Shown here in pieces: positions 28,871 through 40,151 of a DNA stretch of 64,000 nucleotides (within the stretch, counting starts at the first letter, position 1; every line of letters starts with the position of its first letter). The notes under the pieces were generated by a model. The model made no database searches, was not told the DNA's origin, and saw only the letters and a program-made list of their open reading frames with translations. The DNA is from an uncultured Maribacter sp. (lineage in GTDB: Bacteria; Bacteroidota; Bacteroidia; Flavobacteriales; Flavobacteriaceae). Position numbers and translations under genes: made by a program. The stretch is from positions 1-64,000 of the forward strand of contig NZ_CANMTX010000010.1 of NCBI RefSeq assembly GCF_947500985.1. Reading direction: 5' to 3'.

Positions 28871-30268
28871 ATGACCTATCAATTTAAGACATATCATAAA
28901 AAAATTCTTGCCGACACCATGACGCCGGTAAGCGTTTATTTGAAAATAAGAGACCGTTTTCCAAATAGTATTTTATTAGAGAGTAGTGACTATCACGCTA
29001 ATAACAATAGCTTTTCGTACATCTGCTGCAACCCTATTGCATCTATTAAAGTGGAGAATGAGATTATTACAAAACAGTTTCCTGATGGCGCTATTGAAGA
29101 GATTCAAATTACAGTAGATACCAATGTTGTTGATATTATTGATACGTTCAGTAAAACGTTCAAGGCAGACACTAACGACTTTAAATTTATAAATAATGGT
29201 CTGTTCGGCTATATGGCTTACGATGCCGTTCGGTATTTCGAAGATGTAGATATATCTGTTAAAGATGACTCGATTCATATTCCAGATATTTACTATGCAG
29301 TATATCAAAACATTATTGCTATAAATCATTATAAGAACGAAGCTTATCTTTTTGCGCATTGCTATAACACAGAGAATAATATTCCTGAATTAGAACAACT
29401 GTTAAGTATTAGAAATTTTGCCACGTATAACTTTAAAATAGAAGGTGACAGAGAATCTAATCTAGAAGATGAAGAATATAGAGAACATGTAGACTTAGCA
29501 AAAAAGCATTGTCAACGTGGCGATGTTTTTCAATTGGTATTGAGCCGTCGTTTTTCTCAAGGTTTTAAAGGTGATGAGTTCAATGTTTATAGAGCGTTAC
29601 GTTCTGTAAATCCTTCACCATATTTGTTCTATTTCGATTATGGAGATTTTAAGATATTTGGTAGTTCACCAGAAGCACAACTGATTGTTAGCGATGGTAA
29701 GGCAGAAATTCACCCCATTGCTGGTACTTTTAAAAGAACCGGAAACGATGAACAAGATGCACAACTTGCTAAAGAGTTAAAGACAGACGATAAAGAAAAT
29801 AGTGAGCATGTAATGTTAGTAGATCTTGCACGTAACGACCTTAGTAGAAATGGTAGCGTAGTACAGGTAGAAAACTATAGAGAAGTACAGTTTTTCTCTC
29901 ATGTAATTCACTTAGTTTCAAAGGTTACCGGAATAAAGAAAAGTGATATACCTACTATGAAGGTTGTCGCTGACACTTTCCCCGCAGGTACTTTAAGTGG
30001 CGCGCCTAAACATATGGCAATGCAACTTATTGAAAAATATGAAAAAACGAGTCGTGGGTATTATGGTGGCGCTATCGGTTTCATGGATTTCTCAGGAAAC
30101 TTCAACCATGCCATCATGATCAGAACTTTTTTAAGTAAAAATCACAAACTACATTATCAGGCTGGCGCCGGATTGGTCGCTGCATCAAACCCAGAAAGCG
30201 AACTACAAGAAACATATAACAAACTAGGAGCTTTGACCAAGGCATTAGAAATAGCTGAAGAAATATAA
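28871..30268 (+). CDS. trpE: Anthranilate synthase component I
   Basis: 465 aa; IFGSSPEAQLIVSDGKAEIHPIAGTFKRTG, chorismate-binding domain; followed by trpGDCFBA. Confidence 0.95.
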   Translation: MTYQFKTYHKKILADTMTPVSVYLKIRDRFPNSILLESSDYHANNNSFSYICCNPIASIKVENEIITKQFPDGAIEEIQITVDTNVVDIIDTFSKTFKADTNDFKFINNGLFGYMAYDAVRYFEDVDISVKDDSIHIPDIYYAVYQNIIAINHYKNEAYLFAHCYNTENNIPELEQLLSIRNFATYNFKIEGDRESNLEDEEYREHVDLAKKHCQRGDVFQLVLSRRFSQGFKGDEFNVYRALRSVNPSPYLFYFDYGDFKIFGSSPEAQLIVSDGKAEIHPIAGTFKRTGNDEQDAQLAKELKTDDKENSEHVMLVDLARNDLSRNGSVVQVENYREVQFFSHVIHLVSKVTGIKKSDIPTMKVVADTFPAGTLSGAPKHMAMQLIEKYEKTSRGYYGGAIGFMDFSGNFNHAIMIRTFLSKNHKLHYQAGAGLVAASNPESELQETYNKLGALTKALEIAEEI

Positions 30269-30269
30269 G

Positions 30270-30839
30270 ATGAAGAAAATATTAGTTATAGATAATTACG
30301 ATAGTTTCACTTATAACCTAGTGCATTATTTAGAGGAATTAGGTTGTGAGGTTATTGTAAAACGTAATGACCAACTTACTCTAGAAGAGGTTGATGCTTT
30401 TGATAAAATTGTACTTTCTCCAGGTCCTGGTATTCCTGATGAAGCGGGATTATTAAAACAAATCATCGAAAAATATGCACCTACCAAAAGTATATTCGGT
30501 GTTTGTTTGGGGCAACAGGCTATAGCTGAAGTATTCGGTGGTTCGTTAATAAATTTGGATGAAGTGTACCACGGTATTGCAACTAAAATAAAAATCACAA
30601 AAGATGATATTATTTTTGAAGGGCTGCCTAATGAAATCGAAGTAGGTAGATACCATTCTTGGGTGGTGAATCCTAATTTACCAGAAGTTTTAGAAGCTAC
30701 TTCTATAGATAAAAACGGACAAATCATGTCACTCCGTCATAAAACTTATGATGTACGTGCCGTACAATTTCATCCAGAATCTGTTTTAACTCCGCAAGGA
30801 AAAAAAATGCTTGAGAATTGGGTAAATGCAAAAGCATAG
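30270..30839 (+). CDS. trpG: Anthranilate synthase component II (glutamine amidotransferase)
   Basis: 189 aa; VLSPGPGIPDEAGLL, FGVCLGQQAIAEVFGG, VQFHPESVLT. Confidence 0.95.
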   Translation: MKKILVIDNYDSFTYNLVHYLEELGCEVIVKRNDQLTLEEVDAFDKIVLSPGPGIPDEAGLLKQIIEKYAPTKSIFGVCLGQQAIAEVFGGSLINLDEVYHGIATKIKITKDDIIFEGLPNEIEVGRYHSWVVNPNLPEVLEATSIDKNGQIMSLRHKTYDVRAVQFHPESVLTPQGKKMLENWVNAKA

Positions 30840-30908
30840 TAATGAGTATCAAGTACAAAGTAAAAACTTCTTTGTACCCTATACAAACTACTTAATAGTA
30901 TTAAAAAA

Positions 30909-31904
30909 ATGAAAGAGACACTTAATAAACTTATAAATCACGAAATACTTTCCAAAGAAGATGCGAAACGCATTTTGGTAAATATTGCGAAAGGTGATTA
31001 CAACACAAGTCAGATTGCTGCTTTTTTAACAGTATATATGATGCGTAGTATTACTATTGAAGAACTTGAAGGATTTAGAGATGCATTATTAGATTTATGT
31101 TTGGCAGTAGATTTATCTGCCTATAACCCTATTGATCTTTGCGGTACTGGTGGTGATGGAAAAGATACTTTTAATATTTCTACTCTTGCCTCTTTTGTTA
31201 CAGCAGGCGCAGGAGTAAAAGTTACTAAGCATGGTAATTACGGAGTATCTTCTAAATGTGGTAGTAGTAATGTGATGGAATTTCTAGGGATAAAATTCAG
31301 TAACGACGCTGGCTTCCTAGAAAAATGTATAGATGAAGCTGGTATTTGTGTTTTACACGCTCCCCTATTTCACCCTGCCATGAAAAATGTGGCTCCTATT
31401 CGTAAAGATTTAGGCGTAAAAACGTTCTTCAATATGCTCGGTCCAATGGTAAATCCTGCTTTTCCTAAAAATCAAATGGTAGGTGTTTTCAACTTAGAGC
31501 TTGCCCGTATGTACGGATATTTATATCAGAAAACCGATAAGAATTTCACCGTTCTGCATGCTTTAGATGGGTATGATGAAATTTCTTTAACGGGAAGTAC
31601 TAAAACCATTTCTAACCATACAGAAAGCATGCTAAAACCATCTGATTTTGGTGTAAAACAAATTAAACAAAGTGATATTGTAGGCGGAGATTCTATTGAT
31701 ACTTCTGCTCAGATTTTCTTGAATGTTTTACAAGGCAGAGGTACAGAGCCGCAAAACAATGTTGTGTGTGCTAATGCCGGTATTGCAATAGCTACTGTAA
31801 ATAACCTAACACCTTTAGAAGGTTTTGAAAAAGCTAAAGAATCGCTTTTAGGTGGACACGGACTAGCAGCTTTGAAGAAAATACAAGAACTAAGCAGAAA
31901 TTAA
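30909..31904 (+). CDS. trpD: Anthranilate phosphoribosyltransferase
   Basis: 331 aa; DLCGTGGDGKDTFNISTLASFVTAGAGVKVTKHGNYGVSSKCGSSNVME. Confidence 0.96.
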   Translation: MKETLNKLINHEILSKEDAKRILVNIAKGDYNTSQIAAFLTVYMMRSITIEELEGFRDALLDLCLAVDLSAYNPIDLCGTGGDGKDTFNISTLASFVTAGAGVKVTKHGNYGVSSKCGSSNVMEFLGIKFSNDAGFLEKCIDEAGICVLHAPLFHPAMKNVAPIRKDLGVKTFFNMLGPMVNPAFPKNQMVGVFNLELARMYGYLYQKTDKNFTVLHALDGYDEISLTGSTKTISNHTESMLKPSDFGVKQIKQSDIVGGDSIDTSAQIFLNVLQGRGTEPQNNVVCANAGIAIATVNNLTPLEGFEKAKESLLGGHGLAALKKIQELSRN

Positions 31905-31955
31905 GCAGATTACTTCATACCTTGAAATGACGAGGTAATAAAGAACATATATTTC

Positions 31956-32741
31956 ATGAACATTCTAGATAAAATAGTAGCCGATAAACGCAAAGAAGTT
32001 GAATTGAAAAAATCGATCATTCCAGTGTCTCAATATGAAGCATCTGTACTTTTTAATCGAAAAACCAACTCTTTAGCTCAAGCACTTAAAAATAGTGATA
32101 CGGGTATTATAGCTGAATTTAAACGTAGGTCTCCGTCCAAAGAAAGTATTAATCAAAATGCTAATGTTGGTCAAGTTGCCAAAGGTTATGAGAATGCCGG
32201 AGTTTGCGGAATGAGCGTACTTACAGATATTAAATATTTTGGTGGTGCTATCGAAGATTTAATTTTAGCACGCGCATCGGTTAATCTTCCATTACTACGT
32301 AAAGAATTTATCATTAGTGAATATCAAATAATCGAAGCCAAAGCATATGGTGCAGATGTTATTTTACTTATCGCAGCAATTCTAACAAAGCAAGAAATTA
32401 AGACCTATTCTGAACTGGCTAAAAGCTTAGGCTTAGATGTTTTATTAGAGGTACATAATGAAGAGGAACTTCATAAATCTATTATGCCAAGTTTAGATAT
32501 GTTAGGCGTAAACAATAGAAACCTAAAGACTTTCGAGGTAAGTTTAGATACTAGTAAATCTTTATCAAAATTGATACCAGATGATTTTGTAAAAATTTCT
32601 GAAAGCGGAATTAGTTCTATTGATGCCATCAAAGAATTAAAACCTTATGGTTATGAAGGTTTTTTAATTGGTGAGAATTTTATGAAGACAGATAACCCTG
32701 GGAAAAGTGCCATTCAATTCATCAAAAACTTGAAAAACTAA
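31956..32741 (+). CDS. trpC: Indole-3-glycerol-phosphate synthase
   Basis: 261 aa; IIAEFKRRSPSKESIN, MLGVNNRNLKTFEVSLDTS. Confidence 0.96.
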   Translation: MNILDKIVADKRKEVELKKSIIPVSQYEASVLFNRKTNSLAQALKNSDTGIIAEFKRRSPSKESINQNANVGQVAKGYENAGVCGMSVLTDIKYFGGAIEDLILARASVNLPLLRKEFIISEYQIIEAKAYGADVILLIAAILTKQEIKTYSELAKSLGLDVLLEVHNEEELHKSIMPSLDMLGVNNRNLKTFEVSLDTSKSLSKLIPDDFVKISESGISSIDAIKELKPYGYEGFLIGENFMKTDNPGKSAIQFIKNLKN

Positions 32742-33367
32742 TGAAACTGAAAATTTGTGGAATGAAACTGAATACGACTGAAGTTGCGCAATTGCGACCA
32801 GACTATTTGGGCTTTATTTTCTGGGAACCCTCTTCTAGATTTTTTGAAGGTAAAATCTCCGAACTTCCGCATACGATTAGTAAAGTGGGCGTTTTTGTTG
32901 ATGCAGAGTTAGATTATATCATTAATACAGTTCAGAAATATCAGTTACAAGGACTGCAATTGCACGGCCATGAAACTCCAGATTATTGTACTAAAATTGC
33001 AGCTGAATTAAAGAAATTGAATCATAAAGTCGACATTATAAAAGTATTCTCCATTAAAGAGGAATTCAACTTTGATGTTTTGACGCCGTATGAAAATGTG
33101 TGCGACTATTACCTTTTTGATACTAAAGGAAAATTACCCGGCGGAAATGGATATACCTTTAATTGGTCTGTTCTTAAAAATTACCCTTCTACAAAACCTT
33201 TCTTTTTAAGCGGAGGTATTGGTTTAAATAATCTGGATAAGATTAATGAATTTATGAAAACACCTGAATCTAAATATTGCTATGCCATTGATGTCAATAG
33301 CTCTTTCGAAATAGAACCAGGATTGAAAAATATTGAAGAATTACAAAAGTTTAAAGAAGCGCTATGA
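32741..33367 (+). CDS. trpF: Phosphoribosylanthranilate isomerase
   Basis: 208 aa; [21 protein letters not shown]; overlaps trpC stop by 1 nt and trpB start by 4 nt. Confidence 0.95.
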
Positions 33368-34548
33368 ATTATAATGCTGACGAAAAAGGATACTACGGTG
33401 AATTTGGTGGTGCCTTTATACCTGAAATGTTGTACCCAAACGTTGAGGAACTACGACAAAATTATTTAAAACTGATGTATGAAGATTCTTTTCAGAAAGA
33501 ATTTAATCAGCTTTTAAAAGACTATGTTGGTAGACCTTCTCCCCTATATTTTGCTAAACGTCTTTCTGAAAAGCACGGTTGTAAAATTTATTTAAAAAGA
33601 GAAGACTTAAACCATACTGGTGCCCACAAGATTAATAACACTATCGGTCAAATTCTTATGGCCCAAAAATTGGGTAAAACTAGAATTATCGCCGAAACTG
33701 GTGCTGGTCAACATGGTGTTGCTACCGCTACCGTTTGTGCTTTAATGGGCATGGAATGTATCGTTTACATGGGTGAAATTGATATTGCCCGTCAAGCTCC
33801 TAATGTTGCCCGTATGAAAATGCTTGGCGCAGAAGTAAGACCGGCAAAATCTGGTAGTAGAACATTAAAAGATGCAACAAACGAGGCTATTAGAGATTGG
33901 ATAAACAATCCTATAGACACCCATTACATTATTGGTTCTGCAATTGGTCCGCATCCTTACCCAGATATGGTTACACGTTTTCAATCTATAATATCAGAAG
34001 AGATAAAATGGCAACTGAAAGAACATGAAGGGCGAGAAAATCCTGATTACGTAGTGGCATGTATTGGTGGTGGCAGTAATGCCGCTGGCACTTATTACCA
34101 CTTCTTAGATCAACCTGAAGTTGGAATTATTGCCGTTGAAGCTGCTGGTAAAGGAGTAAATTCTGGCGAAAGTGCTGCAACATCTGCTCTTGGTAAAGTA
34201 GGTATTATTCATGGTTGCAAAACCATGTTGATGCAAACAACAGATGGTCAAATTACAGAACCCTATTCTATTTCTGCGGGATTAGATTATCCTGGCGTAG
34301 GTCCTATGCATTCGCATTTATTCAAATCTGGTCGTGCTGAATTTTACTCTGCAACAGATGACGAGGCTATGGCTGCAGGGTTAGAATTATCGCAATTAGA
34401 GGGAATTATACCTGCTATTGAAACAGGACATGCGTTTGCCATTTTTGAACATAAAAAATTCAAGAAAGATGACGTTGTCGTTATCAGCCTTTCTGGTCGA
34501 GGCGATAAAGATTTGAATACATATATTGATTATTTTAAGCTAGCATAA
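33364..34548 (+). CDS. trpB: Tryptophan synthase beta subunit
   Basis: 394 aa; [33 protein letters not shown]. Confidence 0.98.
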
Positions 34549-34554
34549 CCTATT

Positions 34555-35319
34555 ATGAGCAATAGAATTACAACAAAATTACAAGAAGACAAAAAGCTTC
34601 TTTCTATATATTTTACGGCTGGTTATCCTGCATTGAATGATACCGTTCAAATCATTCAAGATTTGGAAAAGAACGGCGTAGATATGATCGAAATAGGATT
34701 ACCATTTAGTGATCCTCTTGCAGACGGACCTACTATTCAAGAAAGCTCCACTGCCGCCTTGAAAAATGGAATGACTACCGAAATAATTTTCAACCAATTA
34801 AAAGATATTCGCAAAACGGTCTCTATCCCTTTAATTATAATGGGATACTTTAACCCAATGTTACAATACGGTGTTGAGGCATTCTGTAAAAAATGTCAAG
34901 AAATTGGTATTGACGGATTGATTATGCCAGATTTACCTTTAGATGTGTACAAAGAGGATTATGAGGCAACTTTTAAAAAATACGGACTTATAAATATTTT
35001 TCTAATTACACCACAAACTAGTGATGCTCGTATTCGTCAAATTGATGATGCTTCTAACGGGTTTATCTATATGGTCAGTTCTGCTAGTGTTACAGGTTCA
35101 AAATCGGGTTTTGGTCAAGAACAAGAAAATTATTTTGAGCGAATAGCTTCCATGAATTTAAAGAATCCACAAATAGTTGGTTTTGGTATTAAGGACGAAG
35201 AAACTTTTAAGCAGGCAACTAAAACCGCCAAAGGTGCTATTATAGGTTCTGCTTTTATTAAGCATTTGACTGCTAATGGAACTGATAAAACTGCTGAGTT
35301 CACCAAACTAATACGATAA
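34555..35319 (+). CDS. trpA: Tryptophan synthase alpha subunit
   Basis: 254 aa; IEIGLPFSDPLADGPTIQESSTAALKNGMT. Confidence 0.97.
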   Translation: MSNRITTKLQEDKKLLSIYFTAGYPALNDTVQIIQDLEKNGVDMIEIGLPFSDPLADGPTIQESSTAALKNGMTTEIIFNQLKDIRKTVSIPLIIMGYFNPMLQYGVEAFCKKCQEIGIDGLIMPDLPLDVYKEDYEATFKKYGLINIFLITPQTSDARIRQIDDASNGFIYMVSSASVTGSKSGFGQEQENYFERIASMNLKNPQIVGFGIKDEETFKQATKTAKGAIIGSAFIKHLTANGTDKTAEFTKLIR

Positions 35320-38011: not shown

Positions 38012-40096
38012 ATGAAAAATTTCAACTTTTTATCAATTTTAATGCTTTTGCTGATTATAGCAAGTTGCTCAGATGACGACAATGCCGTATCCAACGTAAT
38101 CATACCAGCATCTGGTGACATCGCCGGCGGACCCTTTACTTTTTGTGTAGACGGTGTACCTGATATGGTAAGTGGCATAACCCTTAATAGTGAAAGCGCT
38201 ACAGGTACTAGCAGCACATGGGTAATTACTGATGACCAAAATAATATTCTTGGTATTCCTCCAACTTTAGAAGCAGTACAAGGTGTTGATTTTGACGCTG
38301 CGGGTGCAGGTACTTGTTTTATTTGGTACTTAAGATATGAAGAAGGGCTAACCGGACTCGAAATGGGTTTGAATACCAATGGTTTTGAAGGCTCTTTTGA
38401 TTTATCGAACTCCATCGAGGTCCAAAGAAACGAAACCATGGCAGGTGTTCTTTCAGGTGGACCTTATGAATTTACCGTTGATGGTAATGCCGATTTCGTT
38501 ACCGATATTTCTTTAGATGGTGAAAATGCAATAGGTAGCAATAGTACTTTTGTCATTACCGATGATGAACTCAATATTCTTGGATTACCACCAACATTAG
38601 AAGCTGTAAAAGAAGTTGATTTTGACATGGCAGGTGCAGGTGTTTGTCTTATCTGGTATTTACGATATGAAGATGATTTGATCGGTGCCGAAGCAGGTAT
38701 GAATGCGGGAGAACTTGAAGGCTGTTTTAGTTTATCTAATTCTATTCAAGTTACTCGATTAGATGCTGCAAATGCTGGAATAATTTCAGGAGGTCCATTT
38801 AACTTTTGTGTAGATGGTGAAGTAGATAACGTTTATGGAATTACTTTAGACAGCTCAGAATCTACAGGTAGCAGTAGCAGCTGGGTTATTACAGATGAGC
38901 AAGGAAAAATTCTAGGTCTTCCACCTACATTAGAAGCAGTAGAAGGGGTGAATTTTGATGGAGCAGGTGCTGGTACTTGCTTAATATGGTATTTACGCTA
39001 TGAAGGTGAATTGAACGGACTAGCTGTTGATATGAATGCAAATGACCTACAGGGGAATTTTAATTTATCTAATTCAATTGAAGTGGTTAGAAGTAAAACC
39101 GAAGCCGGAGTTTTAACTGGTGGACCATATAAATTCTATGTAGATGGTGAAGCTGACCATGTAACCGATATTATGCTAGATGCCTCTGAAGCTTCAGGAA
39201 CAAATAGCACATGGGTTATTACAGATGAAGAATTGAATATTCTTGGTCTTCCACCAACTATTGATGCTGTTAAAGGTGTAAACTTTGATGCTGCAGGTGT
39301 TGGTACTTGTTTAATTTGGTATTTAAGATATGAAGATGGTTTAGAAGGTGCCGCCATGGGCTATAACGCTGCAGACTTAAACGGATGCTTTGATCTGTCT
39401 AACCCTATTGAAGTTCAAAGAGTACAAGGTGTAAATGCAGGTACTTTAGAAGGAGGTCCATTTAGCTTTTGTGTTGACGGTGAAGTTGATAATGTATATG
39501 GCATTACGCTAGATAATTCCAACGCAACGGGAACTCAAAACACTTGGGTTATTACTGATGATCAAGGAAAAATATTGGGTCTACCTCCAACACTTGAAGC
39601 TGTAGAAGGCGTAAACTTTGATGGTGCCGGTGCAGGAACTTGTTTAATTTGGTACGCACGTTACGAAGGTGAAATTACAGGACTTGCGGTAGATATGAAT
39701 GCAAATAACGTTACAGGAAATTTTGCGCTATCGAACCCATTGACAGTGGTAAGAACAAAACCTGAAGCCGGTACAATTACGGGAGGTCCGTTTGAATTTA
39801 TTGTCGATGAAACTGCTGATTTCGTTACTGGTATTACTTTAACCAACGAAAATGCGTCAGGAGCAAATAGCTCTTGGATAATTACAGATGAATCTGGTAG
39901 AATACTTGGATTGCCACCAACTTTAGCAGATGTACAAGCTGTAGATTTTAACGCTGCCGGTGAAGGAACATGCTTTATCTATTACATTAGATACGAAGAT
40001 GGATTAACAGGTATGGAACCTGGCTGGACATTTGATGAGTTCAATGGCTGTTTTGATATTTCAAACAATATAAAAGTGGTTCGCAAGGTTCATTAA
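38012..40096 (+). CDS. Lipoprotein composed of six tandem ~110-aa repeats of unknown function
   Basis: MKNFNFLSILMLLLIIASCSDDD (lipobox) then six GGPFxFCVDG...WVITDxxxxILGLPPTLEAV...GAGTCLIWYLRYE...LSNxIxVxR units. ORF track start 37967 is likely too early. Confidence 0.9.
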   Translation: MKNFNFLSILMLLLIIASCSDDDNAVSNVIIPASGDIAGGPFTFCVDGVPDMVSGITLNSESATGTSSTWVITDDQNNILGIPPTLEAVQGVDFDAAGAGTCFIWYLRYEEGLTGLEMGLNTNGFEGSFDLSNSIEVQRNETMAGVLSGGPYEFTVDGNADFVTDISLDGENAIGSNSTFVITDDELNILGLPPTLEAVKEVDFDMAGAGVCLIWYLRYEDDLIGAEAGMNAGELEGCFSLSNSIQVTRLDAANAGIISGGPFNFCVDGEVDNVYGITLDSSESTGSSSSWVITDEQGKILGLPPTLEAVEGVNFDGAGAGTCLIWYLRYEGELNGLAVDMNANDLQGNFNLSNSIEVVRSKTEAGVLTGGPYKFYVDGEADHVTDIMLDASEASGTNSTWVITDEELNILGLPPTIDAVKGVNFDAAGVGTCLIWYLRYEDGLEGAAMGYNAADLNGCFDLSNPIEVQRVQGVNAGTLEGGPFSFCVDGEVDNVYGITLDNSNATGTQNTWVITDDQGKILGLPPTLEAVEGVNFDGAGAGTCLIWYARYEGEITGLAVDMNANNVTGNFALSNPLTVVRTKPEAGTITGGPFEFIVDETADFVTGITLTNENASGANSSWIITDESGRILGLPPTLADVQAVDFNAAGEGTCFIYYIRYEDGLTGMEPGWTFDEFNGCFDISNNIKVVRKVH
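38126..40093 (+). repeat. Six in-frame repeats (GGPF starts at 38126, 38456, 38789, 39119, 39452, 39782), period 330/333/330/333/330 bp
   Basis: Start-codon-relative positions counted; all in frame; dimer period exactly 663 bp. Confidence 0.9.
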
Positions 40097-40115: not shown

Positions 40116-40151
40116 AAAAAGGCTCTGTAATTAAATTTACAGAGCCTTTTT
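40116..40151. terminator. Bidirectional Rho-independent terminator between repeat lipoprotein and ppc
   Basis: AAAAAGGCTCTGTAAATTTAATTTACAGAGCCTTTTT-type hairpin at convergent gene ends. Confidence 0.85.

Follow-up and report, generated by a model that had tools for sequence, protein, structure and literature searches.

How are the domains of a protein that consists of nothing but repeats joined to one another? The question is raised by a gene in the window, by which we mean the whole 64,000-nucleotide stretch of Maribacter DNA analyzed here. Its product is a lipoprotein of six repeats in which one Cys of each repeat alternates strictly between two sites, so that several pairings can be drawn on paper, each coupling different repeats. 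The arrangement of Cys in the relatives of this protein distinguishes among them.

The six-repeat lipoprotein and its cysteines

The gene, its repeats and the flanking elements are as follows.

38012..40096 (stop included), + strand: lipoprotein gene, 694 aa, solely six repeats (from the translation and the Maribacter orthologues)
38012..38068, + strand: signal peptide with lipobox IIASC (from the sequence; same lipobox in 8 Maribacter orthologues)
38066-38068, + strand: lipidation site Cys19 (from the lipobox)
38069..38080, + strand: SDDD directly behind Cys19, a predicted signal for lipoprotein export (motif likeness to the signals in PMC5080379)
38126..38455, + strand: repeat 1; N-site Cys45 (38144-38146), core Cys102 (38315-38317), no C-site Cys
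38456..38788, + strand: repeat 2; core Cys212 (38645-38647), C-site Cys238 (38723-38725); predicted bond Cys45-Cys238
38789..39118, + strand: repeat 3; N-site Cys266 (38807-38809), core Cys323 (38978-38980)
39119..39451, + strand: repeat 4; core Cys433 (39308-39310), C-site Cys459 (39386-39388); predicted bond Cys266-Cys459
39452..39781, + strand: repeat 5; N-site Cys487 (39470-39472), core Cys544 (39641-39643)
39782..40093, + strand: repeat 6; core Cys654 (39971-39973), C-site Cys680 (40049-40051); predicted bond Cys487-Cys680
40116..40151, no strand assigned: 15-bp terminator-like hairpin between the lipoprotein gene and the convergent ppc (consensus match only)

An earlier note on this DNA had placed the repeat starts at 38126, 38456, 38789, 39119, 39452 and 39782; on translation these, the repeat lengths (110/111/110/111/110/104 aa for R1-R6) and the Cys positions all prove correct. 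The 13 Cys comprise lipobox Cys19 and two residues per repeat: a core Cys in each of R1-R6 and a second Cys that occupies the N-site in R1, R3 and R5, whose C-sites hold S, N and N, respectively, and the C-site in R2, R4 and R6, whose N-sites hold T, Y and I. The note's description of one core Cys per repeat with an alternating second Cys is exact. Across the family the core Cys hardly varies (158/159; it is Tyr in L129), and every pairing considered leaves it without a partner. The six repeats are 50-79% identical to one another, with R3-R5 at 79%, R3-R4 at 63% and the odd-even pairs at 50-66%. To judge from the sequence, a 221-aa two-repeat unit was duplicated, and part of the Cys regularity is inheritance.

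Maribacter orthologues of the lipoprotein are 72-99% identical to it, the 99% counterpart being that of Maribacter sp. 1_MG-2023; every full-length close orthologue fetched has six repeats and the identical Cys alternation. Only about 3 aa separate the last strand of R6 from the protein end, and there is no tip domain C-terminal of R6. The gene stands alone, with ~190 bp of non-coding DNA upstream. Close Maribacter relatives share its neighbors, the trp operon, an M20 peptidase gene and ppc, and ppc adjoins the repeat gene also in two more distant relatives (L091 and L097); in the remaining loci examined, trp, the M20 peptidase and ppc were not found beside the repeat genes. Because the neighbors differ beyond close relatives, an operon-based function for the lipoprotein was rejected. 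A literature search on the Maribacter lipoprotein returned nothing relevant. In the window itself, the translations show that 28871-35319, which lies upstream of the gene for the M20 peptidase, has the trp genes in the order of a complete operon, trpEGDCFBA. In one Maribacter genome (L192, G1272:C5:34500-38000) the lipoprotein gene is reduced to a remnant with in-frame stops; the lipoprotein can thus be lost.

Cysteine counts at the junctions between repeats

Relatives carry 1 to 25 repeats and distribute their Cys in several ways. Pair arrays, the type found in the window, contain a unit with an N-site Cys followed by a C-site Cys, repeated 1, 2, 3, 5 or 6 times, in some cases behind one or two leading repeats that have neither. 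In five 3-repeat lipoproteins (one unpaired and two paired repeats) and four 4-repeat lipoproteins, the pair is always at the far end, and pair-type arrays of 2, 3 or 4 repeats have exactly one N-site and one C-site Cys, in consecutive repeats and with N first. In chain arrays (L131-L134, L137-L140) the first repeat has the N-site Cys only, the middle repeats have both and the last has the C-site Cys only. Arrays with both Cys in every repeat (L128, L130, L141-L143) usually have two additional Cys, one immediately ahead of the first repeat and the other immediately behind the last, and the 5-repeat lipoproteins lack N- and C-site Cys throughout. Where a single site is missing inside an array, a Cys in the linker substitutes for it, and a linker that contains two Cys comes with both sites filled (L018, L025, L161, L171, L178 and L185).

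These layouts follow one rule. Writing N(i) and C(i) for the N-site and C-site Cys of repeat i, we added up, at the junction of repeats i and i+1, the Cys that N(i), C(i+1) and the linker between them contribute, and asked whether the sum is even or odd (its parity), with the Cys sites scored by profile for the final counts. The 112 loci have 567 distinct junctions, and 564 of these show even parity; when C(i+1) is shuffled among junctions, the mean is 324 and the maximum 354. The three exceptions are one in L009, which is truncated by a contig start, and two in the divergent array L179. The rule was formulated on the first loci, and 38 further loci, mostly from another family, were fetched with the prediction fixed beforehand: among these, parity is even at 254/256 junctions, and an odd number of linker Cys is found at 11 of the 13 junctions that have just one of N(i) and C(i+1) and at none of the 243 others. 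Over all loci, linker Cys occur at 13/16 junctions where one partner is absent and at 0/551 others. Even junction parity in the relatives makes it most likely that N(i) bonds C(i+1) and that, where one of the two is missing, a linker Cys replaces it. By way of contrast, C(i), the linker and N(i+1) together give even counts at 514/567 junctions, and N(i) with C(i) at 400/567. Uniform arrays satisfy all three pairings and so have no discriminating power; in the varying arrays alone (300 junctions), N(i)-C(i+1) is even at 297, C(i)-N(i+1) at 247 and N(i)-C(i) at 133. When sites are paired throughout 52 arrays (359 sites), N(i)-C(i+1) with flanking Cys leaves 5 unpaired, four of them at contig ends, as compared to 171 for intra-repeat pairing and 89-121 for C(i)-N(i+1). 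The Cys without a predicted partner include the head Cys of L010 (GCDGG) and C1 of L135.

The earlier note had offered two arrangements for the window protein. A disulfide between each odd repeat and the even repeat that follows it (R1-R2, R3-R4, R5-R6) is well supported by the 2-, 3- and 4-repeat arrays, in which N comes first. Bonds across the units (R2-R3 and R4-R5, that is, C2-N3 and C4-N5), with R1 and R6 closing a ring, are arithmetically possible in the window protein alone; however, short of ring closure they would deprive both N1 and the final C-site of a partner in every pair-type array, are impossible as a rule for arrays of two to four repeats with one N followed by one C, and strand the 89-121 sites counted above where N(i)-C(i+1) strands 5. 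Ring closure finds no support and is contradicted by the homologue arrays, and we regard the across-unit arrangement as extremely improbable. Of the note's expectation that a survey of homologues would reveal alternating Cys and an even number of repeats, the pairing stood and the even number fell: arrays of 3, 5 and 9 repeats exist, and those of 3 and 9 obey the rule.

A bond within a single fold would also pair the Cys. It could form in a strand-swapped two-repeat unit, in which repeat i+1 takes up the N strand of its predecessor, or between N(i) and C(i) of single repeats. In its favor, both Cys are frequent in single repeats and in the uniform both-Cys arrays, and in the two-repeat model the N- and C-strand secondary structure differs between R1 and R2; against it, the N strand is predicted in an isolated repeat too. 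Intra-repeat pairing, moreover, needs no flanking Cys, yet the both-Cys arrays usually have them at both ends, and chain arrays begin with N only and finish with C only, making an intra-fold bond unlikely.

The alternation could instead reflect duplication of the two-repeat unit alone, with no paired role for the extra Cys. The higher identity of R3 and R5 than of odd-even pairs fits such a history, and well-supported independent changes are few: a tree of 253 junctions has five on well-supported branches. In those five, N(i) and C(i+1) shift together in 4.7/5 on average and never oppositely (sign test p = 0.06), and the relatedness of the repeats weakens the parity statistics. Duplication would nonetheless leave unexplained both the joint gain and loss of N(i) and C(i+1) and the presence of linker Cys exactly where a partner is missing. 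That the N(i)-C(i+1) rule holds in arrays of quite different layout argues that the alternation is not duplication alone, an explanation that we consider quite improbable.

The position of the substituting Cys bears on the geometry of the N(i)-C(i+1) bond. A Cys right after a repeat replaces the C-site Cys of the next repeat, and a Cys right before a repeat replaces the N-site Cys of the previous one. Since C(i+1) can be replaced by a Cys that follows repeat i at a distance of a few residues, the N-site of repeat i would lie near the end that faces i+1; since N(i) can be replaced by a Cys that precedes i+1 by a few residues, the C-site would lie close to this joint as well, on its opposite side. 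With both sites facing one joint, they are most simply read as forming a disulfide that connects two domains arranged end to end. In the window protein, the predicted bonded pairs 45-238, 266-459 and 487-680 are each 193 residues apart. Linker lengths differ along the same lines: in arrays with N/C sites, the linker has 9 residues in 75/91 joints scored as locked by a predicted bond and at least 10 in 54/57 unlocked joints, and in the window protein linkers 2-3 and 4-5 are one residue longer than those of joints 1-2, 3-4 and 5-6. Nine residues does not require a bond, as linkers of this length are common (54/82) in arrays without N/C-site Cys.

Alternatively, the joint Cys, two of them or four where the linker has two, could bind a metal and form no disulfide. 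A metal site, too, would fit joints that have 0, 2 or 4 Cys, and in the organism's own genome there is no match to DsbB, VKOR or Thioredoxin_4 profiles, though disulfides are predicted in an exported protein. A site with two Cys, however, would need extra conserved ligands at the Cys joints, and an unsystematic look at the alignments noticed none. In an exported protein of an aerobe two Cys normally oxidize, and the paired Cys would be expected to do so here, possibly through oxygen or another thioredoxin-fold protein; metal binding therefore strikes us as a distinctly improbable use of these residues.

The repeat as a domain of Bacteroidota

In a family sample of 93 diverse repeats, each taken singly, none matches Pfam-A or NCBIfam (E <= 0.01). 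A match of the whole protein to Pfam DUF3846, above the cut-off over 52 residues, is absent from the 93 single repeats and was judged spurious. Profile searches against PDB sequences found no significant match among solved structures, and the weak matches at E 0.3-1.2 were set aside as chance. AlphaFold models the repeat with high confidence (repeats 1-2, pLDDT 95.2 and pTM 0.78; repeat 1 alone, pLDDT 95.7 and pTM 0.87), and Foldseek gives no significant PDB fold match for these models: for two repeats the best are cadherin EC1-2, the SraP adhesin and CbhA FnIII, with E of at least 1.6e-3 and TM < 0.4, and for a single repeat the best E is 0.18 with TM 0.40. A viral structure library yields generic Ig-like/BIG2 resemblances only. 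As modeled, the repeat appears to be an uncatalogued Bacteroidota domain, beta-rich and possibly Ig-like. The structural comparison that the earlier note had proposed for a single repeat has thus returned a confident model and no significant solved relative, and its remark that similar sequences of marine flavobacteria are annotated only as hypothetical fits repeats that lack a Pfam or NCBIfam model.

The repeat was found in 8/396 genomes drawn across the phylum, 50/301 genomes of the window's family, 19/36 genomes of its genus (by whole-protein search) and 157/248 genomes of a second family, which holds a metagenome-assembled genome labelled Saprospiraceae. It occurs in three contexts: lipoproteins that end at the last repeat, arrays secreted by the type IX secretion system (T9SS), and spacers in cellulases, where repeats lie between GH5, GH9, GH48 or LPMO10 domains and a T9SS tail. 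A 917-aa repeat protein is present with the same layout in L018 and L156, and the longest array has 25 repeats in one 3252-aa frame (L172).

Several loci illustrate this range. In L031:2896-9894 and L113:2250-16637, repeats without N- or C-site Cys separate the catalytic domains of cellulases that are secreted; in Aquimarina litoralis a single polypeptide joins GH9, CBM3 and PKD to three repeats, which are followed by GH48 and a T9SS tail; and in another genome, three adjacent genes (GH5; GH5 + GH48; GH9) have near-identical repeats. Genomes of the Saprospiraceae type (L172 = G1028:C337, L165 and L166) carry very long arrays, and many copies per genome. The genome of the window has 13 T9SS tails above the cut-off, so T9SS cargo exists in this organism.

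A predicted rod with locked and free joints

For the window protein, we think it likely that disulfides lock joints 1-2, 3-4 and 5-6 and that joints 2-3 and 4-5 are free. The lipoprotein would sit in the outer membrane, exposed at the surface, and its whole mature part would be a rod: an uncatalogued and beta-rich extracellular domain, present six times, with neighboring copies packed end to end. The N-site Cys would lie at the end of domain i toward i+1 and the C-site Cys at the end of i+1 toward i; where both are present, a disulfide would lock the joint, the outcome being three stiff two-domain segments and two hinges. In short lipoprotein arrays in which a single joint scored as locked follows unlocked ones (L093, L105, L107, L114 and L096, L098, L100, L104, L116), the joint so scored lies outermost in every case, at the greatest distance from the membrane anchor.

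The N terminus of the lipoprotein, IIASC-SDDDN, combines a lipobox with the export-signal pattern, polar and then acidic, of surface-exposed Bacteroidota lipoproteins, and most lipoprotein-type relatives have S/N/E/D and then D/E-rich residues. SDDDD from B. fragilis and SDDFE from F. johnsoniae are functional export signals in Capnocytophaga (PMC5080379), and surface exposure of the Maribacter lipoprotein is predicted from its C-SDDD. Most lipoprotein-type arrays end 0-4 aa past the last repeat. Without a tip domain, either the repeats themselves would bind or pack or the protein would be a coat or spacer, and the occurrence of the same repeat between cellulase domains favors a structural or carbohydrate-facing role. 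We suggest, tentatively, that the lipoprotein could serve as a surface fiber, whether spacer or adhesive.

Similar designs are known, each with differences. In RTX adhesins the extender domains are beta-sandwiches repeated in tandem, and Ca2+ occupies their linkers (PMC7493085); like the proposed Maribacter rod, these are long surface proteins with tandem beta-rich domains and stiffened joints, whose array projects from the cell, but their lock is linker calcium, whereas that of the Maribacter array is a predicted interdomain disulfide at some joints only. We found no sequence relation between RTX extender domains and the Maribacter repeat. Cross-linked stalks of Gram-positive bacteria are likewise surface Ig-like arrays with covalent cross-links, including disulfides. 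Their links are intradomain, as in the giant adhesin of Mobiluncus mulieris, which has cross-links within each Ig-like domain and a flexible interdomain linker (PMC10619420), whereas the bond predicted in the Maribacter family is between neighboring domains. Periscope proteins, with stalks of SHIRT domains, resemble the family in that repeat number, and hence length, varies among relatives, and the abstract makes no mention of disulfide locks (PMC8201768); unlike the periscope proteins as described there, the full-length close Maribacter orthologues fetched show no length variation. The fibrillar adhesin-like proteins of Bacteroidetes (PMC8286594) share tandem stalk domains, and many of them, like many relatives of the window protein, have a T9SS tail. 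They are defined, however, by known adhesive and known stalk domains, and the window protein has neither in Pfam; with no adhesive Pfam domain, the six-repeat lipoprotein falls outside the definition of a fibrillar adhesin.

This extracellular domain is widespread and has no entry in Pfam or NCBIfam, and no relative of it was found among solved structures; its Cys allow interdomain disulfides to be predicted from sequence with unusual precision. Taking the relatives together, we lean somewhat toward the view that the domain family, which ~63% of the genomes sampled from one Bacteroidota family possess, builds extracellular rods whose joints are individually set as locked or free by a Cys code; a locked joint would be specified by N(i) and C(i+1), by one of these two plus a linker Cys, or by both plus two linker Cys. 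If so, hundreds of surface rods would have a stiffness pattern readable from sequence, which would spell out whether all joints are locked, alternate joints as in the window protein, the outermost only, or none. Calcium-stiffened joints are established in RTX adhesins; locking by disulfides, joint by joint, would be a new route to the same end.
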